From Desarmillaria ectypa (lineage: Eukaryota > Basidiomycota > Agaricomycetes > Agaricales > Physalacriaceae): a stretch of 64,000 bases of DNA. Location: positions 1,674,001 to 1,738,000 of the forward strand of contig JAUDYN010000006.1 in the NCBI GenBank assembly GCA_030407005.1, in the 5' to 3' direction. Below, in pieces: positions 9,636-64,000 of the stretch. The position numbers were made by a program, and so were the translations under genes. The first letter of the stretch is position 1, and every line of letters starts with the position of its first letter. The notes below the pieces were generated by a model that was not told where the DNA came from, ran no database searches, and was given only the letters and a program-made list of their open reading frames with translations.

Positions 9636-10026
9636 GGTGGGATAAATATTGAGAGAGTCCTTGAGTGCGCGCGTGATGGTACAGAAAAAGGAATCCTCGG
9701 CCAGGCCCGAAGTATCGGCTTGTATGCAAACAATGGCAAATAATTGTCTTCGTCTCTACCACCAGGTGTAAAGCTGTAAGGCTCGTACCGTACAAGACAT
9801 TCGTCTTTCTTCGCGAGCGGGTAAGGTCTGAGTATTCAAAGCTCTCTTGCTGGGCTCTATCCAAGTCCGACTTGTTACGAGTCGAGCAACGTATCAGAAA
9901 CTCGCAGGGATCACATTTTACGGCCAAAGACACTTTCTCTCGAAAGCGAGGTCATACCGGGATCCTTTGCTTGGAATCGTTGTAGAGCTTTGGCAGGCTA
10001 TTCGATGCTTTCATGGTGCTATTAGT

Positions 10027-10056
10027 CCTCGGGTATTCCCACGTGGGAATGCGAGG
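10027..10056. repeat. palindrome centred on CACGTG
   Basis: ATTCCCACGTGGGAAT (10035-10050) is a perfect 16-bp palindrome around an E-box core, flanked by CCTCG and CGAGG arms that also pair. It could be a bHLH-type site or a relic of an inverted-repeat element. The rest of 9636-10681 has no recognised gene. Confidence 0.5.
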
Positions 10057-10681
10057 GTGATGACGGCTGCTTTCAGCGCTGCAAACCCTTTTCACGGTTT
10101 ATCGTGATGGATTATCGACGACTTGCTCGTTGGCAGCTGGGATCAGCAATGAACTTTGGGGGGCAGGCAAGGGATTAGATATAGCGTACTCTCCTGTATC
10201 CAATGGTACATGGACTATGGGCTACGTGGTTGCTTTTCTTTCAACCTGTCCTTAATCGGTCCATTTGCGGCCTTGCACCGACGCAGCCGGTCGTTCGATT
10301 AACAGGGCTCAAGGCATATTTGATGCTGAAGGATTAGTCTGTCCTTTAGTTCACTTTGTGGCGCGTATGCTTGCATACGAAACTTGATTCAGACTACTCT
10401 ATGTCTGTTGGGGAGGATCCCCCACAAAAAATTTTTTACCTCCCTTTACTCTTTTCGGAGAGCCTGTATACCCATTTCTACTGCGTTAAGGTGAGGAAAC
10501 TTCCTAGCTGTTTCGTCATAACTAATTAATGTCTGAAGTTACAGCTTTGGTATCATGGTTGCTAGTACACAGGGCTATCGTGATTCAAGTAAAAAAACTT
10601 ATATCGTTGTAGGGACGCTTGTATTGTAAGGTCAAAGAAGAAAAACAGATGGTTGTGTATCAGAACGTGCAAGGCCTGTGT

Positions 10682-43700: not shown

Positions 43701-44184
43701 ACTAAATAGCATGCCACGAATGCTGATGGTTATGCTCCAGCTACATCTGCTATCGGTAACGGCACTATTTGAAGACACTAAAGGAATCTGCTGACAAACG
43801 CTGCTGCACATAGACTACAAAACTGATTCGATCATCCAGTCTTCGCTAAGGAATGAACTTGGCTCAGACATGACGCTGATTACTGTAGCTCACCGTCTAC
43901 AAACGATCATGGACGCTGATAAGATTGTGCGTATGCCTTGTCACTGAGATAGACCTTCGCAACTTAATGTGTGTTGTTTTAGATGGTCCTAGAAGCCGGC
44001 CACATTGTGAGTCCTTCGCGAAATGTAGACTTATAGTAAGTGACTCATGTCCGTCCCGCAGGTGGAGTTCGATTCCCCCAAGAACCTATTAGCTAATCCA
44101 GAAGGCAAGCTGAGGTCCCTAGTGGACGAGTCCGCCGACAAGGATGTCCTAAACGCTATGGCGGAGCAACGTAAGCAGTCATAG
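37742..44184 (+). CDS. full-length ABCC-type (MRP / Ybt1-like) ABC transporter
   Basis: A large ATP-driven exporter of organic anions or conjugates, probably vacuolar or plasma-membrane. Order: N-terminal TMD0-like helices; first membrane domain with a long acidic Ser-rich insert between helices (39.3-39.55 kb); NBD1 with Walker A GPTGSGKTS, signature LSGGQKAR, Walker B VILLDDVLAALD; a Glu/Ala-rich linker; second membrane domain; NBD2 with Walker A GRTGSGKSS (split by an intron), signature LSVGQRQ, Walker B LLILDEATSAI and switch His in TVAHRL. As in other ABCC proteins, NBD1 carries Asp in place of the catalytic Glu (DDVLAALD), so only NBD2 is expected to hydrolyse ATP well. About twenty introns. 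The C-terminus (VEFDSPKNLLANPEGK) recurs as a fragment at 9.5 kb. Confidence 0.95.
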
Positions 44185-44344: not shown

Positions 44345-45175
44345 TCAGTAGTATATAGCACAGGCTACGAGACTGTCTTTACTCCTTCTGTCAAACCGAA
44401 CGACGGTGCCGGCGCCCAGGTTAAAAACCTTGAAGCATCCATCGGACGTGAGCGTAAAGGTGCTATCTACGCCGAAATCGGGTGTTGCTGTGAGTTTTAA
44501 GGCATGTCCTCGATCTGCAACGACCAACTTGGCTTGCAAGTTGGTAACGACGCTCGAAAAGCAGTCGCAGATGGATTCCCAGTAAATCGAGTCATCGCCA
44601 CTGACTTACACTCAGGTCAGCTTGTGCTGAATTCATGATTGAATAGTCTCTAAACGTGTGTGGTAGAATTTTGGAGTCTTGGGCACAAACTTTTCAAGCG
44701 CACACCAGACAGCTCCCCAGCACATCTCATTGCAGCAGATATTTTCCGGTTAAAGGACTTATCGGTGGACGACACCCCTGACCATACGCCCATTCCAGAA
44801 ATTCAGTTGCTAGATCAACCCAGGGGACGCGTATCGGCCATTCACGTAGCCGTGTTCTTTCATCTCTTCAACACAGAACAGCAGCTTCAGCTAGGAAAAA
44901 CCATGGTTATATTGCTATCGTCGACTCCAGGGTCAATGATATTCGGGACACATAGCGGTCTACCGACTAAAGAACATCGCGGAGAGCCTATCGCTCGGGG
45001 TGGCCACACTCGTAGCATGTTTTGTCACTCACCTGAGACGTGGCGATCTGTGTGGGACGGTGGGATATTTCCCAAAGACGCTGTCGACGTTGAGGTTAGC
45101 TTGAAGGCGATCGACCGCCCGGATCCAGCTGCAGCCAAGTTTTACATGCTTGTGTGGTGTATAACAGTGCGGTAG
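44345..45175 (+). CDS. small SAM-dependent methyltransferase, N-terminus unresolved
   Basis: Exons join to give AIYAEIGCCFGNDARKAVAD, GFPVNRVIATDLHSEFWSLG, HKLFKRTPDSSPAHLIAADI, then GRVSAIHVAVFFHLFNTEQQ, SMIFGTHSGLP, MFCHSPETWRSVWDGGIFP, ending AAKFYMLVWCITVR. This is a class I methyltransferase family common in mushrooms and often linked to secondary metabolism. The glycine-rich loop is in EIGCCFGND and the acidic ribose-binding residue in ATDLHSEFW. Introns with gtgagt/gcaag and gtcagc/gtag were needed. No in-frame ATG precedes YETVFTP; an upstream TGA at about 44325 closes the frame, so a 5' exon is missing from my model or the gene is truncated. Its 3' end overlaps, antisense, the last exon of the transcript carrying RNA copies B and C. 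Confidence 0.75.
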
Positions 45176-46296: not shown

Positions 46297-47498
46297 TCAT
46301 GTCATTGCTTTATCCACCAATTTAACTATCTCTTCCGCACATCCCCAGCTTGCCTGCCATCCCGCTCCGGAGTGCCCAATATTATGAAACACAGGAATAG
46401 ATGCAACATCAACTTCTAAATCTTTCCCTCTCTCTAATCGAAGACCACTTCTCCGCGCTGGCCGGAAGCCAACGACCTCCCTGATGACAATAGAGTCAAG
46501 GTCCTCGGGTACAGGAGCGCGGCCCTCCACGCGCAGATGAGGCGGAACAAGCTCAGGACATATTTCCAGAGCCCGTTTTTTGATATCCAACGAGGTTTCT
46601 GGGACAGGATCGTAATTCCTGGGAGATGGATTAGATAGACTCTTCTATAACAGGAGCAAGCTGCATACCAATCATCGGCCTCTCTTGTCCCACCAATGAT
46701 GACCTGCCCACTGCGTCTGGGGATGATATACGTTCGATCTCCGCCCTCTCCGCCCGCTAGATCACTCATCTGCTTTGTACGTCCCTCCTTGATCCAGGGA
46801 GCGTCGAGAACAATTACTTGCCCGCGAACAGGGTACATTTCATCGTCCAACACATCACCCAGCTTAAGCGATCCTAGGCCTGTGCAATTGATAATGGCGA
46901 GGGGCGTTTGTGGCTTTGTGAATTCCAACGCATCATGAAGAGAAGCGAGTGTGGCACGGTGGACGGTGCCTCCGAGATTGTGGAAGATCTTGACAAGTTT
47001 AGCCAGGTACGGAGATGTGTCCATCGTGAGGGACGTGAAAGAAACGCTGTGTTTAGCATAAGACTTCAGTTCATCTTGAGAATAGATGCGGAACTTTTCA
47101 TACATATTAGTCGCGAAACACCTCATGGGAGAATCGCTCACATCCGGCATCGACTCGTAAAACTTGATATGCTTCACGCCTTCCGACCCATATAATTCAA
47201 CCTGCCGAAGCTTCATCAAAGCACTTGCGTCGGCCTCTTCGGCCTCTTCTTTCCACATAACATTGAATGTTCGCTTATCTAGCGCTTGCTGACGAAGATC
47301 ATCATCTGCAGCGAACGAGAGGTGATGAGCTCCTGCCGCAGTTGATGCATAGATGGCGGTCAATGGATCTCCAGGTTGATGAGCTCCAACGGCAACGACG
47401 TGATATCCGGCCTGTAAGAGCCGTGTTGCAGATGTCAATCCGATGATGCCAAATCCTAGAACAAGGATAGGTCGGCTCGGTTTCGATGCAGATGACAT
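46297..47498 (-). CDS. DAO1: D-amino-acid oxidase (FAD)
   Basis: Oxidises D-amino acids to 2-oxo acids, ammonia and hydrogen peroxide. The Rossmann motif is GFGIIG at residues 15-20 (VLGFGIIGLTSATRLLQAGY). Later signatures are INCTGLGS, VRGQVIVLDAPW, DRTYIIPRRSGQVIIGGT, and the family C-terminal block FRPARRSGLRLERG and FHNIGHSGAGWQASWGCAEE with the conserved Arg and Gly. One intron (46.62-46.67 kb) was removed to give DDWNYDPVPETSLDIKKRA. The protein ends VDKAMT and so lacks an obvious peroxisomal SKL signal, unusual for fungal enzymes of this kind. It is divergent from the racemase gene with a 179-bp spacer. In context it would take the D-amino acid released by the carbamoylase. Confidence 0.95.
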
Positions 47499-47677
47499 TA
47501 TTCACTGTAAGAAAGGTCTTCGTTGGTGCGCCAGAGCTGAAATTATACACCCGCACAATACTGACGCTAATAGCCAGCCTTTGCCGACCCTTTGCCGGGG
47601 CGAATGCCCGTAACAGATGTGACGCCGTGACACTTGGATGACCTCCAAGTAGCTATGGTCATCTTAGTCTGTTATCC
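47499..47677. promoter_or_regulatory. bidirectional promoter of DAO and hydantoin racemase with repeated CCTTTGCCG
   Basis: The 179-bp spacer contains a direct repeat, CCTTTGCCG at 47578-47586 and 47589-47597, spaced by 11 bp, about one helical turn. Read on the other strand each half is CGGCAA, the half-site also seen before the carbamoylase gene. CGG-type half-sites are what Zn2Cys6 factors bind, and such a factor is encoded 5 kb away. The link is inference. Confidence 0.5.
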
Positions 47678-48489
47678 ATGGCTCCTGCATCTATCCTCGT
47701 CATAAATCCCAATTCTTCTCAGTCGATTACCAGTGGCCTGGAAGAGACCCTAGTGGCACCTCCAGAAACAAAACTGACGTTCTACACGGCCCCGAGCCAT
47801 GCGCCTCCATCCATCAATGATATCGTAACCGCCAATCTGACAGCGACGGCATGTTTCCAGGATATCCTTGAGAAGAAGTTGTTGGAGGAGTACGATGGGT
47901 TCTTGGTATGCTGCTGTGGGTGATGCTAGCCCTTAAACTGCGCATGCATGATGGTACTCACACCTATACCAGTTTCTGACCATCCGTTAGCATATATGCT
48001 ACGTGAAGTGACGACGAAACCTACAATCGGTATATTCGAGGCGGCCATCACACAAGCATTACTCGTCGGGAAGCGGTTTGGCATCGTGACCACTGGAACG
48101 GGATACAAGTTCAACCTGTACAACGGTGTACGCGCATTTCTGGGAGCTAATTCCGAAAGATTTGCCGGTCTTGTTACGACTGGTCTTGGCGTTGTTGAAC
48201 TCAGAGAAGGCGATAGAGAAAAGATTGAGAAGAAAATGAAGGAGGCGAGCGGAAAGATGGCATCACAGGGTGCAGATGTGATTCTCCTAGGGTGCGCCGG
48301 TGAGCCTTCTGAATGTATTGCTTTCTGAAGGTAATTCTTACCGTCTACTCTACAGGAATGGCTGGGATGGAACCGCTGGTCAAACAGGGTTCAGCGGAGG
48401 CAAAGCTAGGACTGCCGCCCGTCCGAGTGCTCGACGGCGCAAAAGCCGGTGTAGAAATCCTTTCTGCCTTGATCAGGTTGTCTGCATAG
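47678..48489 (+). CDS. Asp/Glu/hydantoin racemase family protein (Dcg1-like)
   Basis: Predicted 232-residue enzyme. Starts MAPASILVINPNSSQSITSG, the phosphate-like loop start of hydantoin racemases and yeast Dcg1. The two catalytic cysteines of this superfamily are seen in GFLVCCFSDHP (Cys78/79) and ILLGCAGMAG (Cys187). Two introns (gtgggt near 47918 and gtgagc near 48300) were spliced. The family interconverts the D and L forms of 5-monosubstituted hydantoins, or related substrates such as allantoin, so allantoin metabolism is an alternative role. Adjacent genes for D-amino-acid oxidase, hydantoinase and carbamoylase favour the hydantoin role here. Confidence 0.9.
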
Positions 48490-48945
48490 AAAAGAAAAGT
48501 GATGATTTGATATTGTGACACACAAGCACGTGCCAGTGACACATTCGCGCCAGAATCATGACGCGTCGCGCACCGCGGCAAATTTCCCCGTAACACCACC
48601 TTGCAGAGTGAGTTATTACACACACAAGCACTCTAATGCCCTGTTTCAGCCGCAGCATCTTGAGGATAACTAAGCATCAGTTACATCTCCAGTTCATCAA
48701 TGGCATTTCGGCAGTTAGATGATGAATCAGATCCGCAAAAAGGGCACCTTTCGCTCGCCTCTCGTCCTCACGCGCGACAGGCACACGCTTAGCCAGTATG
48801 ATCGGAAGTATTCGGTGAGTCTAGCAATTATATTAAGCAGAAGGCTGTGAGTTGGGCTCTTCTATTGATCCATATTTCCCCTACATATATAGGACGGTGG
48901 GCCAGCGGTAGCCGCTCGCTCCTCTCATCTGTGTAGGAGCTAATC
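48490..48945. other. intergenic region upstream of the DUF6534 gene
   Basis: No gene recognised; presumably terminator of the racemase gene and promoter of the next one. Confidence 0.4.
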
Positions 48946-50311
48946 ATGTCCGACACTCCAATCGTAGAATTGTAAGTGTTTCGGTTACCCTTAGCTACAA
49001 AATCAAACTCACTCAAGCACTAGAACTGGACCCGTGGTGCGCCTTTCTGCAGGGCTAACACTAGTTGTTTCGTCATTCATTGCATTCATCGCAGCTTCTG
49101 GGATACTTCTTTAACTGGGGCCTCTGTGGCGCTCTAGTTGTGCAAGTGTGTTGGTATACTTCTTTCTTCCTTCAAACCCACGTACTTTAACTGCTGCGTC
49201 TCATAGATATCTACTACCTCGCTTTCCCCAAAGACAGACGGTGGACAAAATGCTTTGTCCTTTTCATATTCTCCATCGAGCTCCTTCAAACGTTTCTTGC
49301 TACCCGTGATGCATTTCGCACTTTTGCTTCTCACTGGGGGGATAGATCGGACCTGGATAACTTGGGTCTGATATGGTTGAGCGTACCCGTGTTGGGTTCA
49401 ATCAGTTGAGTTTCAGTTGTATCTCCCGCTGATTGATGCTTACCCGCTTGTGGTCAGTCAGCTGCACCGCTCATTGCTTCTTCGCTTGGCGGGTGTATGC
49501 AATGAGCGGTAAAGTCTGGATCACCGGTGTCATTTTGACGGTGAGGGGGATACAGTTTATGTCATCGATTTCTACCATTGATGTGTGTGTGTGTGTGTTT
49601 TTGTTAAAAAAAAAGTTGTCCTTGGTCCAAGGTGGCTCAAGCATATGGACAGCAGTACTTGCTCGTGAATTCGGGCTGTTCTCCGATGTGCACCAGCGTA
49701 TATCCAAGGCGATTCTTGTAAGCTGTTGTTCTCCTCCAAAAAAAAACGTTGCTCACTTTATGCAGGTTTTGTTAGGCGGAAGCGCTCTCTGCGATGTATT
49801 TATTGCAGGAAGCATGCTCTACTACCTGAAAAAGTCTACATCGGGGTATAACCCGTACAGTGCTCCTCTCTACAAGTTCGTGCGGATGGTGGTGCAGTCC
49901 GGCGCCCTTTGCGCAACAGTTTCTGTCTTATACATCGTGCTTTTTTGCGTATATACAGACAACAACTTCCATATGGCTCCAGCTCTAGCTCTTTCGAAGC
50001 TGTATTCTAACTGTCTTTTGGCTGTAAGTCGATACCAACCTTCATCTTCAGGAAAGCTCAAGCCCCCATAGATATTGAACTCCCGTACGCGTTTTAACGT
50101 TGGAAACGGCGAAGTTCCATACTCCTCGAATAACCTTGTGCTATCCTCGTGGCATGTCAACACATCGATCGCTTCAAGTTCTCGTCCGATAAGTCGAGCC
50201 CGATTTGATCCATCAAGAATTCCCAACAGGATAAGATACAGTTCAGAAGCAATCGCAACAGTGAGACTTGGGCTTATAGAATGTGTGTTTGTACTAAATG
50301 CTAGTGTATAG
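48946..50311 (+). CDS. DUF6534-type multi-pass membrane protein
   Basis: A family expanded in mushrooms, with about seven helices and unknown function. Exons join as MSDTPIVELTGPV, LLGYFFNWGLCGALVVQV, then IYYLAFPKDRRWTKCFVLFI, an AHCFFAWRVYAMSG segment, SSIWTAVLAREFGLFSDVHQ, and LLGGSALCDVFIAGSMLYYL. The final family block is ALSKLYSNCLLAILNSRTRF, reached by splicing out 50023-50070; without this intron the frame would stop at 50071. The tail to 50311 is polar. The intron at about 49542-49613 contains a TG microsatellite and a poly-A tract. It lies inside the hydantoin gene group, but nothing shows that it is a transporter. Confidence 0.83.
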
Positions 50312-50438
50312 CCCTCGAAGGATAGCTTGGGAGGTATTGTGATCAAGGAACCCGAATCGTCATACGGATCGCGCTTTTCGTAGAAGGCTAAAGGGAAAAT
50401 AGTACGGGCAATTAAGAGACAACTGTGCTGAAGGTGAA

Positions 50439-52011
50439 ATGTATCAAGTACCCAAATGGAACTTTTCGGTTACTAGACGTGTGCACGCAGATACTGTGGC
50501 TGTGCAACCAGTCCCTTTCATTTCTACTATCATGCCAAAAGTTTGCAACACGTCTGAAACGTATACAGAATGCGAAATTACCGTGTTTCCGCGTGACAAT
50601 AAACTTGTCGTAGCTACTGATGGCAAACGACACGTCTTACTCACTTGAACGGCCTTTCAACGCTCCTAAGATGTGCGCTACTATTTCAATGTGGCATGTA
50701 ATTTTCTCAGCCACTTCCTGCTTAAGAGGAAGCCGTGGAGATAATATCTACTTACTTCTCTTCTATACCAAAATTTGCGTGGTGATACAGACAGACAGAC
50801 TTGAGGGGCTCGAAGGAGAATTTGTCGATGTTCCGAAGGAATCTTGGGCGGAGGTGTTGCCGTTGTTACCGTCTTTGAAGGTTACATTGGATGAAAGAGA
50901 ACTGATTATTCCTCAAGTGGCCGCTCCTGATACGGCCCTGGTTATAGCACCGGATACTTGTGACTGATTTTTCTGATAGCAATTCCAGATTCACTCGCTG
51001 CGCCTGTTCGCGCTACTCTACCCACCACCACTCCTGTCAGCCCGGGCGAAAGAATTAGCGGAAAGGAGATCTACTACAGCTATTGAAATGCCTTTCGCTG
51101 CCCGTTCTTCCGCCAAAGTTATGGGCCTTTTGCCGATGTTATCCTCAAAATCAACGAATGCTCCAAAAATATCGACTTTGTCTATGGAGGTGGCCGTATT
51201 CATTGGGATAGCACCTTCTTCGAAGTTTATTTTGAAGATGGCGACACAATTGACTGCTTTAAAAACAGAAAGGTGGAAAACCTTTCATTTATCTCTTCTC
51301 ACCTATCGAGCAAGACGTGTCTGTGCAGTTGTCGCTTGTAACGAGTGGCGATTTTCTGTCGTGTATCTTGCAGTCCCAATCAATCACTCGGCGCTCCTAG
51401 GAGGAGAAACTCTTACCTGGCGTGCCATCACGCAGAACGACCAGACATTGACGGAGACCACCACGGGTCTCCGAGCATCGTTTTTTTACTGGGAAGCAGT
51501 GTGCGTACCTGCGGTTATGCAATTGGATACATCACTTACAACGGCTCTCATTAGGACTGAGAACGACGAATGCTCTCCCCCTCCCCTACCAGAGACATCT
51601 GAGTCTTCTCTCGCAGGGAACTTCAGTCCAATATCGTGTGACCTCAACAACGACAATTCGGTTGTCCTACCCGTTTCTACTAGTACGCCCTACTTGGACA
51701 AAGTCTCCGCCTCAATAGGACTTCACATTGAAGTGCGAACTTCCTTCATCACGTAGGTCTTTGGCCTCCCCACATCATCTGGAGTAGTGTTAACCTTTCT
51801 TCTTCCAGGTATTGGCTTCCATCTATTCTGAAGCACACCCATGTCGCCCTGCGATTTGTTCCCCAACATGAATACGAAACTGCAGCCCCTCTCCGTATTG
51901 AACCATTACCAGATGCTGTGACACGCATCGTTATGTTGTTCAAAAGTATTTCTGAGGATCAGTTAGGTGAGTGGTCTGGGGCCATCTCACAATTTCAAGA
52001 CAGTGTGGGGT
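50439..52011 (+). CDS. unrecognised protein gene, model uncertain
   Basis: Three stretches look coding on the plus strand: MYQVPKWNFSVTRRVHADTV at 50439; EGEFVDVPKESWAEVLPLLP near 50815; and, after an intron at 51753-51808, YWLPSILKHTHVALRFVPQH followed by PDAVTRIVMLFKSISEDQL. I do not recognise the family. Joins between the first stretches are unclear and frame stops occur, so it may be damaged. On the opposite strand, 51060-51200 contains an ankyrin-like pattern (VDIFGAFVDFEDNIGKRPIT then LAEERAAKG), so two overlapping or alternative genes are possible. Confidence 0.35.
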
Positions 52012-52269
52012 GATGGTGGGACGTTGTGAAACTCGTTTCAAAAGAATGTCAAAGCGATGAGAAGCTGTTCAGAGTATTGTAATGGAGGTAAAGAGGCTGT
52101 AAGCGAGATTTATTAGTATTTTGTTACATCTATACATGCGGGTCCTGTTATCTTTCCCCTTATATGAGGCGACAATACACAATTCTTTAGTTCCTGTTTT
52201 CAAATTGGGTAAATCAGAGTAGATATCGCTATGCCTACATAGCCTCCTTTGCGCTGAACGCCCTTCCCA

Positions 52270-55031
52270 TCATGAAGAAATAAACCCATAATCTGGCGAT
52301 GGCCCTATAGCTGGCATCCCTTCAAACCCACTCCAATCCGCACCAGTCCCAAAGGCATTGAGATCGATATTCCAGTTCCTCACATCCGATGCGATCATCG
52401 CCTCCACGTTCCCATTATTATGCCCTCCCATAGCCTGAGGGAATATCTCCTCGTGTTGATTGAACAATGTGCCTTTAAGGGCAAGAACGACATTCCCAAA
52501 CTCCTCACCCAGGTTCTGTAGACAGGCAGCAACATTCTCGGCCCGTGTCAGGGCGGCATTGGCAAGGTCCCAGTGGTGGAAGTCCCGCGCCTTTTGAAGG
52601 GCGCATCGTAAACGACAAAGAAGAAATATTGGGTTCGTGCGGGAGTCGACCTGAAGACGGTGCTGTTGAGCTGAAGGGGACGTGGTAGGGGAGTCGAGAG
52701 AGGCCGTGGTAGCAAGACTGAGCCTGATGAGGGACGATGTTACTGACGAAAGAATGTGGCCGACATCTACACGTGATGAGTCCTTGCACATTGCAACTCT
52801 TACAGGCGACTTACAAACAAGCCAAAACCCATCAAATGTTCTGCCGTCTAGTGCGACGATATACTCCACAGCCTGAGCATACCTTTCCAATGTTTCTGGA
52901 TCAGGTGTAAATCTGTAGTCCTTTCAAGTCGAGTTGACTATGGTATTCAAAAAAAAAACTGCTCACGGACTGCCAAGCCCGATGCTGAGTTCAATTGCTA
53001 TACGCCTTGCCATGCATCGAAAGCCAAGGAGACAGGTCATTAGCGATGCTATACCGATATGATATGAGCTCCGAGTATTGTCGTGGAATTCGAAGATGCA
53101 ACTCACGGAATCCCGGGGCATCCGCTGCACCCTCTTTTTGCACGTCACGCACTTCCTCCAATAATGATTCCACTTCTTTCTCAATGTCGACGACACGTCC
53201 TAGCCGTTCATCCTTCGGCGCCATGAGAGTACATACTTGCGTTTGAAGTCGCGAAACAAGAATCGTTAGCCGACATAGATGAAGAAAAGAGTTGGCTGAG
53301 TGGACATGCGGGGGAACAGAAGGGACGGGACGAATGGAAGTAAATGGCGATCCTCGCTGCGAAGATGGGTGACCCTGGGGGCTATGTTGGTGCTGTGAAC
53401 GAGGTGAAGAGACATTCGAGAGATGTCCGGGGGAGCTACTTAGCACTGGATGCGAAGGTTTCAGTTGCTGGGTGGCAGAGAGAATAGTAGCGATGGACGG
53501 TAACGGGACAGTATGGTTGTTCGTCTGGACATGAGAGGGACGAGAGTTGAGGAATGATGCCCTAAAACGCATGAGAAGACCTGCTTAGTCGATAGGTGAT
53601 AGTACACACCATGAATCATGAATCCGTAATGCCCACCACAATACACGTCGAAAATCTTTCTCCCAGGACGGTATACCCCAATTAGTTGGGTCTATATGAA
53701 GCCCTAAAAGCTGCGCTTGTGCGAGAGCCTTCTATGTTTTAGTATAAAACGAAAAGCTGAGTAGGTCCGTTCACCCACCCGAGCCAAAATCAGATAGTCA
53801 TCCTCCGCACTACTCAAGGGACGCGCCGATATGTCCAGAAGGGCATCGGAGATACTCGATAAACTGCTCCTCGGAAGTCCTAGAGCCCGATGTAGGGACT
53901 GGGATTTCAAATCCGAAAAAGCCGACGCACCGGTTGCCTCCTGTCCTTCGGTAAGCTTCCTCACCGTTTTGACCAATGACCTATACATCCCTCTGGGTGC
54001 ATGGTTGAGCGCAGCAACGTAGATTTTAGAGAGAACGGGTAAAGGGTACGGATAATCAGGTGAGTATGGGGAGGAAGTCGACTGGGTGCCGACTAGAATA
54101 TGTTTGGTTGGGGGTAGAATCGGAAATGCGGCGTTGCTAGCAGACAGATAAAGGTCGAGAAGGGCCGTCTGGCTTGGCGGAGGATGCAGAAGAGACAGGG
54201 CAGACTTGACATTGTCAAGGTAGGAGTCTGGAGGGCACAGTCGTTGTTCTGTTGTTGCATATAGCCAGGTTAGAAGAGGAAACGAAGGAAAACGACGCAC
54301 TATCTGACTTTCTACTGAAAATAGCATATTGGGGGTTTCTTCCATCAAGTGAAATCTGTCGTGTCTGCTCACTCCTCTCGCCTAATGCAAGATCAGCTCA
54401 ATCGCCGGGGAAACAAATCGATGCTTACCACCAGCCTTGCGCGCCCCGACCGGTAAAAGATCGTCCGTCAATACTGCTGTGATGATGTGGTATCCGCGAG
54501 TTTCTTCCAGCGCGACTGCATCTGATTCATTGATCTGTTGCGTACTCGGACCAGGATCGATATTGACAGCCTGAGCATGGCCTGAAGCGTTCATACGCGA
54601 CCGTTTCGATGGAGCCGGATTGACGGTGTCAATGGTGAGTTCCTGAGGCGATAGTGACCGCTTGCTGGGCTTTTTCCGTTCTCGAGGGAGCTCGTCGAAG
54701 GTGCATTTCTTGCGAGTGTGCCTAGTTTGACCCCATCAGCGAACAGAACGCCACAGCCTATTTGAAGGTGACCCACTGGCACTCAACACACGGCGTTCCC
54801 ACCTCTGTTATTGCGCATCTCGTCTTTGCTCGCCGCTGACATTGTTCGAAGTGTATCGGTCATCAAATACTTTCTGCAGAGCTGTTAACTCACGCAGCCA
54901 TCGCATGGTCGATTTTTCCTGGATCTGAAAGGCCTTGCAAGGGTTACCGGTGGCGGATCATCGTCGTTCGAGTTCTGGTTTATCTCTTTGGGAGGATTAT
55001 TTGTAGTGCCTGACTCAGAGGCCGCGGTCAT
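52270..55031 (-). CDS. Zn(II)2Cys6 fungal transcription factor
   Basis: A sequence-specific nuclear regulator. The binuclear zinc cluster is at residues 43-72: CDGCRRAKTRC, then eight residues, then CVECQHTRKKC. The spacing C-x2-C-x6-C-x8-C-x2-C-x6-C is exact, and it is split over three exons by introns starting gtgagt and gtgggt. A basic linker (PSKRSLSPQ, PSKRSRMNA) follows, then a long middle region of the fungal-specific regulatory type (SVESQIVRRFPSFPLLTWLY, AQLLGLHIDPTNWGIPSWEK) and a C-terminal part ending DWSGFEGMPAIGPSPDYGFI. Its start is 171 bp from the hydantoinase stop codon on the same strand, in the middle of the hydantoin genes, so a role as pathway-specific regulator is likely but inferred. 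These factors usually bind CGG half-sites. Confidence 0.9.
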
Positions 55032-55201
55032 AGTGAAGGGCAGAAGATGTCGATCGGAAAATCCTTTACCTTATCAGCCGCCACGTGCGTTTATCTCGGC
55101 CCGGTATAGGTGCTTCTAATATACAAAATTCAACTGGCTGTATGCATATTTTGTACAAGACACGTACATATGTAGTAGTATCTTCACTATATGCAACAGA
55201 C

Positions 55202-57129
55202 TTACTCAGGCCGCCATTCTGACAACCACTGGTTTCGAGGACCGCTGTAGCGAAAATCAGGGATGGGAGAACTGATGTATAGCATAGGAACTTACGGTAG
55301 CGTACTTGATCTCCGTTGAAGGAACCTGCCAGACCCTGGTGGCGCCAATACTTCGTTAGTCTCGCCGTCATATACAATCCTTCCTCGCAGAATCGTGTAT
55401 CGAGGCCAGTCCTCCAAGACGACGTTCTCGTAAGGTGTGTAGTCACATGCGTGGTGTAGCTGTCCAAGGTGAGAATGTCAAACGGGAAAAGGGATGGATA
55501 GGAAGAACTAACCTTCGAGTTCTCGATCTTATGAGGCTTGCGGCTTTTATCTGAGCGCCAGATGATAAGATCGGCATCACTACCGGGCTGTATGGTCCCC
55601 TCTGTCAAGAAGCACAAGGTGAATACAACGGCAATACGGAGCTGCTAAGAAAAGCATACTTTGAGGATACATCCCATCTAGACACACGGTCAGTATGATA
55701 AGGCTTCAAGGAAAGCGGATATAGCATACATAACTTGGCCGCGTTGGTCGAATTTAATTCGACAAATTTCTGAGGGGTAATGCGACCCTTCAGTACACCC
55801 TCACTCCACAGTAAAGGTGTCCGGGTTTCGACACCAGGAAGCCCGTTTGGTATTGCCTTAAAATTTCCACGGGGGTTGTTCGTGGGATTCTTGGTGAGAC
55901 CGAGCTATGTGTTCACAAGAAAAAAATGAGCGATAAAGAAGTGAGCGATAAGGGATCACACACTTGCTTGCCACGCCCGTCTTTATAGCATGTTGGCGCA
56001 TGATCCGAAGAGAACACCGTAAATGTGCTATTCGCGAGACCCTCCCAGATTCTCTCCTTATCCTTAGGGTCATCTCTGAGGGGCGGTGCACAAACACATT
56101 TTGCACCTTCAAATCCGTCCTTCCGCATTTGCGAGCCGTCAAGTATTGCGTAATGTGGACACGTCTCTGCATAGATAGGGAGAAGTCGCGTTTGAGCTTT
56201 TCGGATGATGTTAATGGCCTCTGGAGCAGAAACATGGACGATAAGCATGGGTGTGTCCATAAGCTCTGCAAGTGCCAAGGCACGACTCGTGGCCTCAGAT
56301 TCAACGATAGGAGGCCTTGAGGTGCCGTGATGCCATGGTTCAGTCATGCCTCGCTCTTGCAGACTCTTCGTCATCCAATCGATGCTAGAGGAGGGTTAAC
56401 CAGATACTTTGAGAGGCGATATAGAAAACGCACACATCCGCGTTCTCGCAATGGACCATGGTAGTCACCTTGTACTTTCGTGCAGCAACTAATACATTGA
56501 GGATTTCGCCATCGTTGAGCTTCAGGTCGACGTAAGTCATATATATCTGGCGCGCGTTTCGATAAAATTTCAAGCTAACGTCAGTTGAGTCTAACCCACC
56601 TTCATCGATGTGATCCCTTCGTTAACAAGTTTTGGGAGTTCGGTGTGCATTTGGTGCTCATTGGGATCCGTCACAATGAGATGGAAGCTGTAATCACAGA
56701 CAGCAAAGTCATCAGACTTCTTGTGATAGTCAACAACTGCGTCCGCAAGCGATGTTCCCCGGCCCTGGACAGCAAAGGCGAGAATGGTGGTCGTCCCGCC
56801 TTGTGCACAAGAAATGAACAATGTTTCCCAAGCGCCTGGAAATGTAACGACTTACCAGCCAAAGCACTCCTAGTCGCGCTCGTCCAATTATCCGCGGAAC
56901 GAGCCCCAAGGCCCTTTGCGGCAGATTGAGCAACATGGACGTGACTATCAACACCTCCAGGAGTGATATATCCTCCCTCTGCATCTATTTCCTGGCACCC
57001 GTCCAGTGAGGGCAAACTGGCAGCGAGGAACCCAATTTTCCCATCCTTGATACCGATATCGCAAGCCACCTGGTCAGACGCAGTGACTACAATACCGTTA
57101 CGAACAATTAAGTCAAGGTCGAAGGACAT
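55202..57129 (-). CDS. dihydropyrimidinase / D-hydantoinase
   Basis: A cyclic amidohydrolase that opens dihydropyrimidines or 5-substituted hydantoins to N-carbamoyl products. The binuclear metal site is complete: HxH in GGVDSHVHV (His63, His65), the carbamylated Lys in EGITSMKIYMTY (Lys158), His in MVHCENAD (His190), a later His in LIVHVSAPEA and the catalytic Asp in VFSSDHAPT. The start MSFDLDLIVRNGIVVTASDQ is the usual one. Introns were spliced at about 55.5, 55.65-55.73, 55.9, 56.4, 56.58 and 56.85 kb. A last short exon ends QWLSEWRPE at 55202; reading through gives a stop a few residues earlier. Sequence alone does not separate pyrimidine from hydantoin use. The neighbouring D-carbamoylase and D-amino-acid oxidase suggest the D-hydantoinase role. 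Confidence 0.93.
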
Positions 57130-60100
57130 GATGGGATGTGCAGACGCAATTTTGCAGAGACCGGATGTATGAATGCATTGTTATGAGTAGTTTTACGTTC
57201 CGGGATCCAACTTGCAAGTTTTCCTGCCTCGGCCAATCCACGTGATGGCGTAAGAATAGGAGCGGGTCTCCCGAATCGCCGCAGGCCAACAATTCTGTGT
57301 TCTGCTTTTCTGCCCTCCAACCTCTTGTGTTGCAGCCATCCGGGTGGAGAGAGGAAGATCATGGAATGCAGTTCGCTCGCTTCAATTTATGCTCCTTGAC
57401 CGATCCGATGCAGTGTTGAACCGAAAATGGCGTCACCTTGCGCCAGTCACGACATTTTCGACATTTTTTCCGAATACTGAGAAAGACTTTCGCACATTAT
57501 ATGGAGCGGTGGGCATGCTGGCTGGCCAAAGGGCATATGTCGATAAGGACAACGGAACTCGGGATCAAGGTCGTCAGATACGAGGAGAGATTACATCCTG
57601 GCGGCCGAGCTGGTTCCCCTCTCATTGGCGCAGTGCACTGGCTAGGAACCATTGGTGAGCTTGCTATATAACTCGACCAGAGAAACGGGACTGAAATATA
57701 TATCAGCGAGAGTGCAAGAATGAGGTGCAATTTGAAAATGATTGCACTGTGCCGCATACAGCGCGCCGTGGTTGTTTGCTGTCGAGCTGCATACGCAAAC
57801 TACCAATGGATCCTTCAGACCGCAAGAAGGCTGTTCCCAGGCTGATATATCGCACGTTCGCTTGTGATCCTGCATTGAAGCTTCCAATTTCCAGCTTCGT
57901 TTCATGATGCGCCAGTGTGTTTCTACTTCTTCCTCTCCAGACCTCCTGCACAGTTGACCCAGGTAAGAAGCTCCTTTGTGTATACCTTACAACATTAAAT
58001 TTTCCTTTAGCCGCGATGCTTGACCATCGACTACATAGAGGGAGTACTCATATCACCTCAGTAACCGTAGTCGCCTTTTTCGAAATCATATACAATAACA
58101 TCTTCGACGATACCCATGATCGACATCTAGCAACATGGTCAGAATAGCATCGAGTCAAGAGACGACACAACCTTTACCTTATATGCGATGTGCTTCGCGT
58201 CGGGGATGAATTTATCTCGGTGTTTCTTTGACTAATTGACCGCGCGACGCTTTGGGGCAAGGGTATAACATGGCACTTACGCTAAACACACTTTGAATTG
58301 GATTATTGAAACTACGTCAAAGCTTTTGTCGAATCCGTCTGGGTTGTTGTTCTTGCCACCTGTTGGCAAATGAGAATATACACACGAGAATGATAGTGAT
58401 TAGACCAATGGGCCCATGGTTGACCATGTGTGCGTTCTCTTCATACAACTTGATGAGTCCGTCAAGGGCATGCCTCTTGTGTATCGGTGGTCCCTAGCTT
58501 GTACTTGAAAGCGGCGAAACGAATGACGGGCCATTATTAAGTGGTGAGTGGCGTTAAATGGGTGGGTTGGAGGGAGAGAGGGAGCAAGGCCTATAAGTAT
58601 GTGGCTCTTGGTACACCGTGCTCTTCGTCCCATTTCTGATAGTAGAGACAGTGTTTTCGTGTCCTAGAGCTGCATCAGTCGTTAATGCGATTTGCCGACT
58701 CATGTATGATCAAAGATAGCCGGGAAAGACGCGTTATGTACGCGATGCAACTACCAGAGAAGATAAACATGTGTTGAAAAATGACGACAACTGGCAGCAA
58801 GGCGCGCATTATTGGTGACCAGGTAGTCATCCTTTCCGTCCTCGTCATAGCCGGTGTATTCGTGTTCAGTCAATTATTATCTCATCACTGTGATATATCG
58901 TTCTAAGTGGGATTGGGATCGGCCTCCGCCTGATATAACACTCTCGCTTGAGACTTCTTCTATCACACATACACCATGGCCCCGCTGACTTGATCATCAG
59001 ACGTAGCCCTATCCGTCCTCATCTACGGCCACTGGAATCAGATTACTTTTCGGGTTTATCTGATACGCTCAGTCATCAGGCCATATCCACTAGAGTCATG
59101 CTCTGGTGAAGCCGGACTCAAGTATTCCATGTTCGAGGCAGGTCTGATGAGAGGAGTGTCGAATACGGCAGCGTTGCCCATACTCCGCTGCTAGACATTA
59201 CGTTCTTCTTATCACGGGCAATCATCCCCTTCAGTGTCTTCGTCGCTGCGGCATGTCTTTCTGTATCTATGCATGCGCTTTAATTGCCGTTTTTCTCTAC
59301 CAAACAATACGGGCCATGTTTTGTTCCCATACGGTCTAACACTTCAAAGCCAAAGTATGACATTCCATCAAATGTTACAACATCGAGGGTAATTCAACTC
59401 TGGCTCTTCTGTTTTTATTATGTTCGCATTATCGACCCAAACCCTAAGTTTTTGAGTCACAGGAAAGTATGCAAGGGCTTGAATCTCTTCAGCCACTTTA
59501 TGATACTATGAAGAAACCGTTCTGCCACACTAACCGTTTCCATGCAGCATTAGTGTTCACTACGCTACAGAAGGTGCCCTGAGAGATAGTCACAACGACA
59601 ACGACTTGGCGTCATCGGGAGTTGGTCTTCTTATTTCCTCCTCGGAATTTTCGATCTTTCCTGCTGGTCCTTTGCTTCCATGCATCTTCGTTGTTTCGCT
59701 ACTACTTCATTACCTATTGCGGTCGTCATATGCTGTCCCTTACACGTACACAGACAATGCGCAAATTGACACCGTGGTCGAAATCACGACAGTGTATCTC
59801 AATCCGTCAATAATCACCTTGCGCGTGTCTCTCACAGGTAGTTGTCTTGTTCGATCCAATGGACAGCCCGTATATATGAATGTATGCTTGAAGCGCGTCT
59901 TGACCACTTTAATGAATGGCTCAGAAGTAAAGCCCCCCATTCTCTTGATATCCTGACATTTCTCGAATCTCACTGATGGGTTCGATTACCACGGGAAATC
60001 ATAAGCTCGGCGTCTGTCTTTCTGAAGAGCCTTATGCTGGAACATTACAGCAGGCGCCACAGTGGGACCGAAAGTCATGGATTCTGTGCAGCCTAAGTAC

Positions 60101-60304
60101 GCCGTCTGTTAACACAAAACCACCGGAGCAAGGACCACCTTGGATTGTAAGACAGCGGTAGCATTACGTCATCATGCATGCTTGTACGAGAGGCGTCTGA
60201 CAGAACTAGACAAAGGGAAAGTCGTGCTACATAGATCGGGATCTTTCCAGGCACTTAGGCAACTGGTTGAGCATGGCGCGACGGCCTCAGCGGATATCTC
60301 GGTC
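57130..60304. other. 3.2 kb gene-poor gap inside the hydantoin gene group
   Basis: Contains the hydantoinase promoter at its left end. Short frames at 57438-57671 plus, 59606-59956 plus and 60140-60412 plus are unrecognised. On the minus strand 58317-58500 reads HALDGLIKLYEENAHMVNHG followed by a hydrophobic helix (PIGLITIILVCIFSFANRW), which may be a small membrane-protein exon. No transporter for hydantoins was found. It may hold one or more decayed genes. Confidence 0.35.
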
Positions 60305-60491
60305 GGGAATATGCCGTTCACATTTTCCGGCAATCGCTGGAGTTTACGGCAGATGCGGCTCGACTTCAGGTTGAGCTTGGAAGAATATGCTAGGCAGCGG
60401 CTTGGAACCTAGCAGTGGAGGTCGACACTTCTCCTTGCCCCGCCTCGGCGAAGTTATGTAGAAATAGGGGCTATTTCCGGCAATATTGCCG
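60305..60491 (+). promoter_or_regulatory. CGG-type half-sites upstream of the carbamoylase gene
   Basis: Three sites occur in order: CGGGAATATGCCG (60305-60317), CGGCAATCG (60329-60337) and the perfect palindrome CGGCAATATTGCCG (60478-60491). The last is an inverted CGG pair with an 8-bp spacer, the form bound by Zn2Cys6 dimers, and lies 75 bp before the start codon. The half-site CGGCAA also occurs twice between the oxidase and racemase genes. Confidence 0.5.
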
Positions 60492-60566
60492 CCGGCTGGC
60501 GGTGCGCACGAGATTTCCCTCAAAGAACCATGGAAGAGCCGACCCGCAGATATTCTCCTTGCTACA

Positions 60567-61833
60567 ATGCCTCGACCCCTTCGCGTTGCAGCAGCTCAAG
60601 TCGGCAGAGTCGACCGCGGAACGCCCAGAGCCCAAGTCGTCGCTCGCTTGATCACACTTCTGGAAGAAGCAGCAGCGAAATCCGTCAAACTAGTCGTGTT
60701 CCCAGAAACGACTTTCACTACGTTCTTCCCTCGATACCTCATTACCGATGAGAAGGAACTCGATTCCTACTTTGAGACCGAGGACACCGAAACCGGAATT
60801 GTCAACTCGGCTAACGTGAAGGCCTTCTTCGATAAAGCCACGGAACTGGAGGTTGACGTCGTCATCGGATATGGAGAAAAGACTCCCGAGGGTACACCAT
60901 ATAACACTGCTAGCTACATCTCTGGCGGTAGGGTTGTATCCAAGTACCGCAAAGTCCATCTGCCAGGAAGTTTTGGTCAGTAAACTTTACCGATTATGAT
61001 ATGGCGAACTCACTGTGTCTTCACTAGAACCTTTCAACGATGACCCCGACACAATTAATCAGCTCGAGAAGAGATACTTCAAGCCAGGGAACTTCGGGTT
61101 CCAGGCTTTCCGGGCCCCCGCTCTTCGTCACGAATCGAGGAGCCCGATCATTGGGATGCTGATATGCAACGACCGGAGATGGGCGGAAGGCTGGCGATGT
61201 TATGGCTTGCAAGGCGTGGAGATAATGTGTATCGGATATGTAAAGCCCACGAGGTGCTTATCTGCTGCTGCGTTCTCATTCGTCTTGATAGAATACGGTC
61301 GCATGGGCCCCAGAACTCTTGGGTGCTGATCCTAACATGGACCGTAATTATGCTCTGAAAGATGCTCTAGTTCGTTTTGGCTTCTCTGTTCCTCCCTTCT
61401 TCCCCTGATACCAAGAACAGTTCCACCACAAACTCGTCTGTCAAAGCAACGCATACACGAACGCCAGTACGCCCTCCTTTGCTTTATTTGAAGGACACCA
61501 TCGTTCATTGCTATAGCTTTCTGTATCACCGCTGCGAGATGTGGCTTGGACGACGGTAAATTTGAGCTGATAACTGGCAGCATGATTGTGGATCCCGAAG
61601 GCCATATCGTTGCCGAAAATAAAACCGATAGCGACGAGCTGATTGTCGCTGACATAGACCTGGATGCCTGCCAGTGCGCAACACATTGTCTCTATCGCTT
61701 AGAGTGAGCTTACGACCCTTGTTGCAGACAAGGCAAAAACTGCACTTTTGCGTTCGCAAAGCATCGACGACCCGAACACTATGGTGCTATTGTCGAACGA
61801 GCAGGAGTAATAGAACCGCTAGAGGTTATCTGA
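60567..61833 (+). CDS. N-carbamoyl-D-amino-acid hydrolase (nitrilase superfamily)
   Basis: Hydrolyses N-carbamoyl-D-amino acids to D-amino acid, CO2 and ammonia. The nitrilase triad is in place: Glu47 in VVFPETTFTTFFPRY, Lys129 in SKYRKVHLPGS and Cys183 in GMLICNDRRWAEGW. The blocks TTFFPR, LEKRYFKPGNFGF, ICNDRRW and FHHKLVCQSNAY are characteristic of D-carbamoylases and differ from beta-ureidopropionase, the pyrimidine-pathway enzyme. Five introns were spliced: near 60978, 61240, 61375, 61467 and 61675. The last uses donor GTGCGC and gives DACQQGKNCTFAFAKHRRPE, followed by HYGAIVERAG. The chosen ATG opens MPRPLRVAAAQVGRV, matching family starts. It lies 3.4 kb from the hydantoinase, in the opposite orientation. 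Confidence 0.93.
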
Positions 61834-62550
61834 GTGTTGACGTTAGGGAATTATGATGCAAGAGCGCAGCTGCGATAGATGTAGATGCATTTATTGAAGC
61901 CTGAAGGTTGGATAAAAGCCAACGCATTTGCTTCCTTCTGTGCATCTTCATGTCATTATGAATGTAGAAGCTTTGAACCTTCCAAGATTCAAGAAGAAGG
62001 GGAGTGAGGCTGCGAAGGATGTCTCGCCCTCAAGAAAGTTCAAACTGTTGCCACTGTTGGTCACTTAAAGTTAGTAGAAGAAAATCACATTGTTTTGTCA
62101 CGTGATACTTGTGACTTAACGCGATTGTGACACGACGCGGTGATTTAGTATGACGCGCCATCATCGCGTCAACGGCTTGGGCGATGGCGAACAGCTTTCG
62201 AGATTTTCCAATTGATATTAATTCATTACGAGCGGATCGACCGCAGATCTTCTTCGATGATGCCTGAGAAGTAAAAATAGGCCGTCAAAAAGCGGATACC
62301 CCAGAAAAACCTAAAAGGACAAGTGGGGAGTCCCTCGCCCTCGAAACGCCGACCCTGAAGTAATCAAGTGATTGATTTTTGTTGGCCTTGGGAAGTATTC
62401 TCTTTTTTAAGCAATCCGATACTTAGGACATTAAATAGTGAACAGTGAAAGCGGAACGGCGAATATCATTATAAATCCATTGGTGCTACCGAACTTTCAT
62501 GACGGTGTGTCAGATACAGCATATACATTGATGAAGCATCAATAAAATTC
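61834..62550. other. convergent 3' region of carbamoylase and aldolase-like genes
   Basis: No coding signal recognised in about 700 bp. Both flanking genes end here. Confidence 0.4.
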
Positions 62551-63798
62551 TCAGAGTAAGAATGCTCCATTTGTCTCCTGCAAAAGAAGCTTATACTCAG
62601 GTTGGAACTTCGGAGGTCGTCAGATGCAAAGGACAATTTTGATAGAAAACATACGTTGACATAGGTGTTCTCCCACCACTGGATCGTCTTGGCAGTAAAT
62701 TCGGCATCCTCCTTCGAGATGATGGTCTTTTTGAGTCCGTTGGCTGCGGCGGCCTCAGCCATGAGCTGGACTTTGCATTGCCGGTCGAGGGCGGCGAACA
62801 AGTAAACGGCTTCATCAACGGTGTTTCCGACTGAGGAACGATTGATAAGATACACAACTGACAATGGTGGTAGGATGAACTCAACGAGTCAAGAGTCCGT
62901 GATTTTGCAAGATACAAGTCTTAAACTTGGGTCCCAAGGCTTTGGCAATATTTTCGCCTTCCTCCCGGGCGAGAACGATGCCGCCAAAGTTCTGATACAC
63001 ACAGTGGTTATCGTAAAACAAGCACGAATCCTGAGTCAGTGTTTCGATGGGGCGGCCGAATAGAGACCAGGCTTTGGCGCTGACGGAATGGCAGTGAGCA
63101 GCTGCTTTCACGTCGGGGCGAGCCTTGTGGATAGCGCTGTCTGTGCATTGGGGCACATTGGGTAACGTTAGAGGGGTTTTATTTAGTTCACTTACGAATG
63201 TAGAATCCGGCCGTGTTGATGGGCAGCTGCGCGCCATGCTTGGTAACATAACCATCGGGACCGACGAGACACAGCATTGATTTCTTAGGAAGAACGTAAT
63301 GTGAGAAGTTCCAGAATTGTTTACAAAGCACTTACGGTCATGGTCGAGAAGTGCTCTGCAAAGGGGTTCATCCTTCTCACATGGTAAGTCATCGGATTAA
63401 TCAATATGTGGGAGAACTAACCAGTAATGGTCAGGGAGGACTGGATCACGTACAGTTATGTGGCCAGCAACACCCTCAACGAAACCCATCTTCCCCCAGT
63501 AACGGAAGGCAGCGGCCATATGCTCCTGAATAGATGTTAGTACTACTAATAGACTTGTAAAATTCCCTGGTTCTCTCACCTTGATCCATTCGCGTTCTTC
63601 ATAGGGATTGTCAAACGTCGGGACAGTCCCCAGCTCAATCGTTCCTAACAGCTATTCAAAGATAGTAATGGTGAGGAAATACAAGTGAGACTTACCTTGT
63701 TTGTTTCCACGCCAGGTCCGTCGCAAAGGGTTATCTGCGAGGCCGTCAAGAGACTGGTGGAACACGCCGTTAGTAGTACCAGTTGCTGTGGGGGACAT
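62551..63798 (-). CDS. class II aldolase / adducin head domain protein
   Basis: Zinc-dependent aldolase-fold enzyme of the L-fuculose-phosphate aldolase superfamily. Starts MSPTATGTTNGVFHQSLDGL. The core reads EHMAAAFRYWGKMGFVEGVA, GHITVRDP with the first ligand His, AAHCHSVSAKAW with two more metal His, and CILQNHGLLTLGHTVDEAVY with the last His. The end is joined through an intron (gtatgt to cgaag) as NFQPEYKLLLQETNGAFLL; the read-through form ending at 62469 is less likely. Fungal members of this size are mostly uncharacterised. Its place at the edge of the hydantoin genes could mean it handles a carbonyl product, but this is speculative. Confidence 0.9.
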
Positions 63799-64000
63799 GG
63801 TTCCTGGACAAGATGGGAGGAAAGCCTCACTGTTTTACGACTCGGTATAATAATTCACGGCTGAATGTGGGGAAAGAAGCCATGTACGCCGCGGCGAAGG
63901 AGTCAAGCCAATAAAATAGGAGCGATAAACTAGATCAGATCTCTCTGAAGCGGCGTTCCCAAAAAGGAAATAGATTTTCATAGTGTAACCCCGTTTGTCG

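Follow-up and report, generated by a model that had tools for sequence, protein, structure and literature searches.

A Desarmillaria ectypa gene cluster with a carbamoylase, hydantoinase and oxidase core conserved in basidiomycetes, and its possible role in hydantoin breakdown

In the genome of Desarmillaria ectypa (Agaricales, Physalacriaceae; 40.6 Mb in 32 contigs), four intact enzyme genes, coding for an oxidase, a racemase, a hydantoinase and a carbamoylase, were found within 15.5 kb of a 64-kb stretch (G000:C29:1674001-1738000, the window, whose numbering is used below), and the carbamoylase-hydantoinase-oxidase core of this group is conserved in basidiomycetes. With moderate confidence, we read the locus as a catabolic cluster for 5-substituted hydantoins, probably those with acidic side chains. 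Gene models were spliced by hand from the window DNA (Table 1); all introns were of the GT-AG type and 49-77 nt long, and the spliced cluster models were uninterrupted, with no internal stops. Pfam matches were obtained for the oxidase (PF01266, 105 bits), the racemase (PF01177, 160 bits), the hydantoinase (PF01979, 74 bits), the carbamoylase (PF00795, 145 bits), an aldolase-like protein (PF00596, 150 bits) and a Zn2Cys6 protein (PF00172, 24 bits against a cut-off of 21). The four enzyme genes and their order, an embedded Zn2Cys6 regulator and a flanking class II aldolase-like gene had been proposed in a preliminary description of this DNA, and the spliced models and Pfam matches bore them out. 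Its statement that the catalytic residues are intact also held, the positions having been located in three of the enzymes: C79 and C187 in the two-cysteine motifs of the racemase, which we take to be the catalytic cysteines; H63, H65, K158, H190, H246 and D323 of the hydantoinase, presumably the metal ligands and the carboxylated lysine; and E47, K129 and C183 of the carbamoylase. The last three correspond to the Glu-Lys-Cys catalytic triad of D-carbamoylases (PMC11503299; here and below, papers are cited for passages of their text). The carbamoylase model was 100% identical over 335 aa to a deposited D. ectypa protein (P0001), so that the splicing of this one model is independently checked.

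Co-location in other fungi was read by eye from the homologue lists of the carbamoylase, the hydantoinase and the oxidase (120 rows each). Proteins of a species were assumed to lie on the same contig where they shared an identical longest-contig size, and the table omits Sporobolomyces pararoseus (proteins from different strains) and Armillaria (collapsed into 90% clusters). At least two of the three genes lay on one contig in 23 of 24 comparable basidiomycete species, and within eight locus tags in 14 of the 15 species with comparable tags. The preliminary description had made its proposal depend beforehand on conserved co-location in related fungi, which these counts provide for the three genes. 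All three were listed in nine species and were on one contig in five of them, namely Dendrothele, Phellopilus, Tremellales sp. Uapishka_1, Rhodosporidiobolus poonsookiae (hydantoinase 002950, oxidase 002954, carbamoylase 002955) and Rhodotorula kratochvilovae. Neighbouring tags were also seen in R. ruineniae (003085/003086), R. araucariae (004041/004040), R. babjevae (001975/001976), Coniferiporia weirii (008964/008965), Kwoniella dejecticola (104138/104135) and Tetrapyrgos (hydantoinase 000237, oxidase 000239). The species with co-location span the Agaricomycetes, Tremellomycetes and Microbotryomycetes (one species looked up per class). Exceptions were Meredithblackwellia, with carbamoylase and oxidase on different contigs; Pseudohyphozyma, with the hydantoinase on another contig; and Cryptococcus sp. 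DSM 104549, in which nothing closer than a common 4-Mb contig links the hydantoinase and the oxidase and the carbamoylase, on another contig, branches outside the main basidiomycete group in a quick-search tree. Within the D. ectypa genome, a search with the carbamoylase found only itself, the racemase was the sole PF01177 match found, and a search with the hydantoinase gave one further place (29% identity). The chance of two single-copy genes each lying within 15 kb of a third is ~5e-7 by our own arithmetic for a genome of 40.6 Mb; as evidence against a chance grouping, conservation in other species is stronger than this calculation.

The racemase would be tied to the core by its position in the window, by bacterial neighbourhoods (see below) and by fusions. 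A PF00795 domain followed by PF01177 was present in five of the 120 listed carbamoylase matches: P0040 and P0092 from Friedmanniomyces (Ascomycota), P0114 from Colletotrichum (an ascomycete), P0118, and P0071, in which the match to the window racemase spans only 103 residues; a sixth candidate, P0036, ends within the racemase start. Such proteins are possible bifunctional enzymes, although some may result from the merging of two gene models; in both cases the carbamoylase and racemase genes would be adjacent in those genomes.

The carbamoylase is of the D-type rather than a beta-ureidopropionase, as the preliminary description had claimed: N-carbamoyl-D-amino-acid hydrolases made up 11 of the 26 solved chains listed and scored 220-225 bits (6lei, 225), compared with 45 bits for the best chain of another kind and at most 39 bits for chains named beta-ureidopropionase. 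By family, the enzyme would be D-specific, and the same may be expected of the hydantoinase. The latter scored 474 bits against the TIGR02033 dihydropyrimidinase model (cut-off 393) and 604 bits against PRK13404, below that model's own cut-off of 647, and was well under the ergothioneine-pathway cut-off. In a quick-search tree built from 32 of the 120 listed hydantoinases and 10 bacterial loci, together with the query and two PDB sequences, all 15 sampled cluster-type hydantoinases formed one clade (support 100), itself nested in a fungal clade that has bacterial neighbours. H63, H65, K158 and D323 were conserved in 26-27 of 27 cluster-type proteins and in 92-93 of 93 other relatives (in the spans printed). 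The loop after the HxH motif, which presumably shapes the substrate pocket, differed: position 67 was Ala or Gly in 25 of 27 cluster-type proteins and Asp or Glu in 62 of 93 others, position 72 was Lys in 18 of 27, and position 77 was Arg or Lys in 25 of 27 compared with 46 of 93 others. These loop residues give a weak hint of acidic substrates.

The oxidase gives the stronger indication of acid specificity. Among solved proteins it scored 280 bits to a D-aspartate oxidase (9vpf), and the next oxidases, both fungal D-amino-acid oxidases, reached 130 (7ct4) and 112 bits (1c0i). The preliminary description had named a D-amino-acid oxidase; the idea of an oxidase extending the bacterial chain was supported, and the general type was not, the protein being most like a fungal D-aspartate oxidase. 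It is 44% identical over 97% to ChDDO of Vanrija humicola (P0306), and its R255 aligns with ChDDO Arg243, which we take to be the substrate-recognising residue. R272 aligns with Arg237 of human D-aspartate oxidase (DDO), where ChDDO has Met. Among the 78 closest relatives listed (77 with a motif match), all 77 have the equivalent of Arg243 and 74 have that of Arg237. Of the following 42 relatives, 39 gave a match, and Arg stands at the two positions in 22 and 24 of these, respectively. Human DDO Arg237 helps to attract and bind D-Asp, and the apparent Km rises 20-fold in R237A (PMC8260693). In crude extracts, CgDao1 of Cryptococcus gattii, annotated as a D-aspartate oxidase, acted on D-Asp and on hardly any other substrate (PMC4489021); its orthologue among the listed proteins is presumably P0292 of C. 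bacillisporus. Acid specificity of the D. ectypa oxidase is therefore likely, and because the enzyme is D-aspartate-oxidase-like with two matching arginines, the end product would probably be oxaloacetate or 2-oxoglutarate. A peroxisomal signal of the SKL/AKL type is missing from the C-terminus of the protein, VDKAMT, whereas AKL is the ending of many relatives from the Sporidiobolales. Four exon-level matches to additional oxidase relatives (39-43% identity) lie within 12 kb elsewhere on the contig (G000:C29:2727526-2739227).

An NCS1 permease gene, divergent from the aldolase-like gene, starts just beyond the window, and it escaped the first reading because the window ends before it. The gene was spliced unbroken, with an ambiguous joint between exons 1 and 2. 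The protein matched the PF02133 model over its full length of 440 positions (355 bits) and TIGR00800 with 363.7 bits (cut-off 353.1), and its only listed solved relatives were chains of the hydantoin permease Mhp1 (2 of 2). NCS1 genes gave 24 exon-level matches in the genome, three of them at this permease, so that the presence of an NCS1 gene is by itself nothing unusual. The locus combines the gene types of a bacterial hydantoin-utilisation cluster, namely racemase, hydantoinase, carbamoylase and transporter, but in a eukaryote, over 20 kb, interrupted by other genes and with an oxidase in addition.

Taken in order, the NCS1 permease would import a cyclic ureide, and the racemase would interconvert the D and L forms at position 5 of the hydantoin. 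The hydantoinase, of the PYD2 family, would open the ring to give an N-carbamoyl-D-amino acid, which the D-carbamoylase, in keeping with its family, would convert to CO2, NH3 and a D-amino acid. The D-aspartate-oxidase-type flavoenzyme, to judge from its family and the two arginines, would then yield a 2-oxo acid, NH3 and H2O2, making the chain effectively one-way and freeing a second ammonium. Since the oxidase is of an acidic type, the likeliest substrates would be hydantoin-5-acetate, hydantoin-5-propionate or N-carbamoyl-D-Asp/D-Glu, leading to oxaloacetate or 2-oxoglutarate. The substrates, the stereospecificity, the regulation and the participation of the permease and the aldolase-like protein are all things that we infer from the sequences. 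Extended to basidiomycetes at large, the proposal is more tentative and somewhat short of probable: a basidiomycete-wide cluster for acidic cyclic ureides, in which a bacterial-type carbamoylase and racemase have been joined to a fungal hydantoinase and a D-aspartate oxidase, the oxidase acting as a stereochemical sink that would draw racemic hydantoin-5-acetate or -propionate through D-Asp or D-Glu to a keto acid of the citric acid cycle.

Bacterial hyu clusters, which we take to consist of hydantoin racemase, D-hydantoinase and N-carbamoyl-D-amino-acid hydrolase genes, with Mhp1 in one case, have the same three families near each other, and the D. ectypa locus also has an Mhp1-related permease. 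It differs from them in being eukaryotic and intron-containing and in having a D-aspartate-type oxidase, a Zn2Cys6 regulator and an aldolase-like gene. Bacterial neighbourhoods were scanned in one genome per prokaryote species for the best 80 of at least 566 confirmed carbamoylase relatives, with flanks of at most 10 kb, and less on some contigs, searched by tblastn at E<=1e-4. Matches were found to the racemase in 40 of 80 flanks, to the hydantoinase family in 36 (28 of them above 280 bits) and to the aldolase-like protein in two; a match to the oxidase or to ChDDO was found in 0 of 80, at a threshold where more distant deaminases would be missed. At the position of His144 of a bacterial D-carbamoylase, counted inside the carbamoylase match, the 80 loci have His in 57 cases, Gln in 19 (Gln-type) and Asn in four. 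In a quick-search tree of 26 of the 120 listed carbamoylases and 15 of the 80 bacterial loci, the sampled fungal carbamoylases formed one clade (SH-aLRT 100) beside Acetobacteraceae, Roseomonas and Bradyrhizobium, which would fit an old single acquisition, undated by the tree. The seven bacterial sister loci in the tree were all Gln-type, and the D. ectypa carbamoylase groups with this subgroup, which is without strong hydantoinase neighbours: among the 19 Gln-type loci, 13 had a racemase match, six had weak hydantoinase matches (87-118 bits) and none had a hydantoinase above 280 bits, all 28 such matches being in other loci. The gene content of the sister loci would count against a simple transfer of a whole bacterial set. 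Because these loci are without a strong hydantoinase and the cluster hydantoinases fall within the fungal clade, the hydantoinase may have joined the cluster from the fungal side. In a study of D-amino-acid enzymes, 17 horizontal transfers were counted for the racemase family, 15 of them into fungi (PMC5169069).

Several observations weigh against a pathway for acidic hydantoins, beside the hydantoinase-poor Gln-type loci, and some of them favour other explanations. The cluster contains a DUF6534 gene and a 3-kb stretch in which no gene was recognised, and no convincing promoter motif was found, with no 7-mer present in four of five upstream stretches. The genome search gave no urocanase match, which weakens the case for histidine (or ergothioneine) as the origin of hydantoin-5-propionate. 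In fungi, the racemase family can serve other purposes: the substrates of OpaE are nonribosomal peptide derivatives (PMC12661438), and for the member from Candida glabrata D-amino acids were considered unlikely substrates (PMC5169069). A characterised bacterial D-carbamoylase works on the aliphatic and aromatic substrates N-carbamoyl-D-Trp, -Ala, -Val, -Phe and -Leu, and in a docking model of such an enzyme the ligand is touched by His144 (PMC11503299). This residue, which is not known to be obligatory, is replaced by Gln (Q148 in D. ectypa) in 119 of the 120 listed, mostly fungal, carbamoylase relatives. Human D-aspartate oxidase (6rkf) matched the oxidase with 83 bits, less than either of the fungal D-amino-acid oxidases. 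Arg216 of the human enzyme, its principal side-chain contact, is without a clear counterpart in the alignment; a Thr-Arg/Lys pair near this region is frequent. Since the oxidase is closest to the fungal enzyme but not to the human one, it is filed here only as the fungal D-aspartate-oxidase type. The carbamoylase substrates and the weak human match are what could be expected if the same pathway handled broad-range or neutral side chains and the oxidase were a general D-amino-acid oxidase, and a Rasamsonia D-amino-acid oxidase also oxidises D-Glu (PMC6697736). We regard such a broad-range pathway as unlikely, in view of the gap between 280 and 130 bits and the conservation of both arginines.

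The hydantoinase and carbamoylase could also belong to reductive pyrimidine breakdown, as the dihydropyrimidinase PYD2 and a beta-ureidopropionase. The best solved relative of the hydantoinase is yeast PYD2 (2fty, presumably from Lachancea kluyveri) with 454 bits, compared with 348 for the best bacterial D-hydantoinase; PYD2 shares the C-terminal motif EWRP and falls in the same fungal clade, though on a long branch. The name D-hydantoinase used in the preliminary description therefore overstates the sequence evidence, while its assignment to the dihydropyrimidinase family with intact residues stands. Likewise, ~6 kb past the aldolase-like gene lies a gene similar to that of GTP cyclohydrolase II (GTP_CH_N, 164 bits; GTP_cyclohydro2, 49 bits), which resembles URC1 of uracil catabolism, presumably the second pyrimidine-degradation route. 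Against such a role, the carbamoylase is of the D-type, the racemase and the D-aspartate-type oxidase have no place in the route, and the cluster hydantoinases form their own basidiomycete clade with a distinct loop after the HxH motif. No match to TIGR01879, which we take to be the family holding the beta-ureidopropionase PYD3 of yeast, was found in an exon-by-exon search of the genome, which can miss genes. The sole match to Fer4_20, presumably a domain of both dihydropyrimidine dehydrogenase and glutamate synthase, was in a 578-aa frame that by eye is a glutamate synthase. A DUF1688 gene, which we take to be URC4 of the other pyrimidine route, is present on contig C28. Pyrimidine breakdown was rejected as the principal explanation on the exon-by-exon failure to find PYD1 and PYD3 types and on the presence of DUF1688; other CN-hydrolase loci were inspected by eye, and an animal-type beta-ureidopropionase may be present elsewhere in the genome. 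We consider it very unlikely, and the carbamoylase is indeed of the D-type on which the preliminary description based its argument against plain pyrimidine breakdown. A route for allantoin or purine ureides, with an allantoin racemase, permease and allantoinase, appears if anything a shade less probable still. The scores of the racemase were near equal for hydantoin (61 bits) and allantoin (60 bits) racemases, and several related ascomycete hydantoinases are labelled 'allantoinase'. With two allantoin permease models, whose cut-offs are 620 and 800, the permease scored far lower (215 and 195 bits), and the hydantoinase reached 207 bits with the allantoinase model (cut-off 358), in contrast to the dihydropyrimidinase score above its cut-off. 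To our knowledge, D-carbamoylase and D-Asp oxidase are not part of the allantoin route. That independent genes came together by chance would agree with the interspersed, unrelated DUF6534 gene and with the nearest bacterial carbamoylase loci, and is the most improbable explanation given the three-gene neighbourhood conserved in many genera, the carbamoylase-racemase fusions and the shared bacterial neighbours.

Hydantoin breakdown is a bacterial trait used industrially, and its natural purpose is unclear. If the proposed hydantoin pathway is correct, a conserved eukaryotic version with oxidase, transporter and regulator would offer a natural context, a class of substrates to test and a system for genetic tests, for example in Rhodotorula toruloides. 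In addition, it would point to a function of D-aspartate oxidase in basidiomycetes beyond free D-Asp, and add a fungal metabolic cluster in which bacterial-type and fungal parts have apparently been put together. The combination of racemase, hydantoinase and carbamoylase is well known from bacteria; in the literature searched we came upon no fungal counterpart that has a D-aspartate-type oxidase and an Mhp1-related permease. In that search, of titles, abstract starts and passages of open-licence papers, no described fungal cluster with this enzyme set was found, and among papers on acidic hydantoins and N-carbamoyl-D-Asp/Glu none concerned fungi by title or abstract start. A hydantoinase/oxoprolinase, presumably of a different family from the hydantoinase described here, is mentioned elsewhere for a related species. 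The source is a paper on caffeine and Desarmillaria tabescens (PMC12735256).

Table 1. Features of the cluster and its flanks. Positions are those of the window unless a contig (G000:C29) is given; L046 is the 10 kb right of the window edge, with L046:98 equal to C29:1738098.
Feature	Position	Strand	Details
Oxidase, fungal D-aspartate-oxidase type FAD enzyme	46297-47498	-	383 aa, 2 exons (46669-47498, 46297-46618)
Oxidase-racemase intergenic stretch	47499-47677		179 bp between divergent start codons
Asp/Glu/hydantoin racemase family protein	47678-48489	+	232 aa, 3 exons
Gene with DUF6534 match	49433-50068		between racemase and Zn2Cys6 gene
Zn2Cys6 transcription factor	52273-55031	-	N-terminal exons modelled: 54894-55031, 54777-54835, 54384-54721
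Hydantoinase/dihydropyrimidinase family amidohydrolase	55202-57129	-	498 aa, 9 exons
N-carbamoyl-D-amino-acid hydrolase family protein (carbamoylase)	60567-61833	+	335 aa, 6 exons
Class II aldolase/adducin-like protein	62551-63798	-	284 aa, 8 exons
Intergenic stretch, aldolase-like gene/NCS1 permease (divergent), window part	63799-64000		
NCS1 permease	G000:C29:1738098-1740429 (L046:98-2429)	+	542 aa, 14 exons; start 98 bp past window edge
GTP cyclohydrolase II-like gene	C29:1744029-1745011 (L046:6029-7011)		

The Zn2Cys6 protein is presumed to be the regulator of the cluster. Open stretches downstream of its N-terminus, down to about 52273, gave no Pfam match and are presumed to belong to the same gene. 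The aldolase-like protein scored over the PRK06208 subfamily cut-off, and since PF00596 is a small family in this genome (two places found), its presence is notable and proves nothing; it may have a part in the pathway, at a step left unassigned. Three pieces of the ~3 kb gap between the hydantoinase and the carbamoylase (57430-60370) gave no Pfam match. The short stretch between the oxidase and racemase genes is presumably a shared promoter region. A CGG-N2-CGG dyad occurred in three of the five upstream stretches, with 0.34 expected in all, which is unconvincing with 63 dyad types tested; GATA-type sites were seen in two of the five and were absent from the 179-bp stretch. The cluster is flanked to the left and right by copies of one family (with stretches such as LGHxLFK and SMIFG), at 44660-45175 in the window and at L046:3772-4278, 7636-8106 and 9295-9825; the two copies tested had no Pfam match. 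ABC-transporter ATPase motifs were seen by eye in open stretches immediately left of the cluster (42975-44180, plus strand), and further left the window contains a nuclear RNase P RNA (9762-10408, plus strand), which matched the full model with 36.2 bits against a gathering score of 28.

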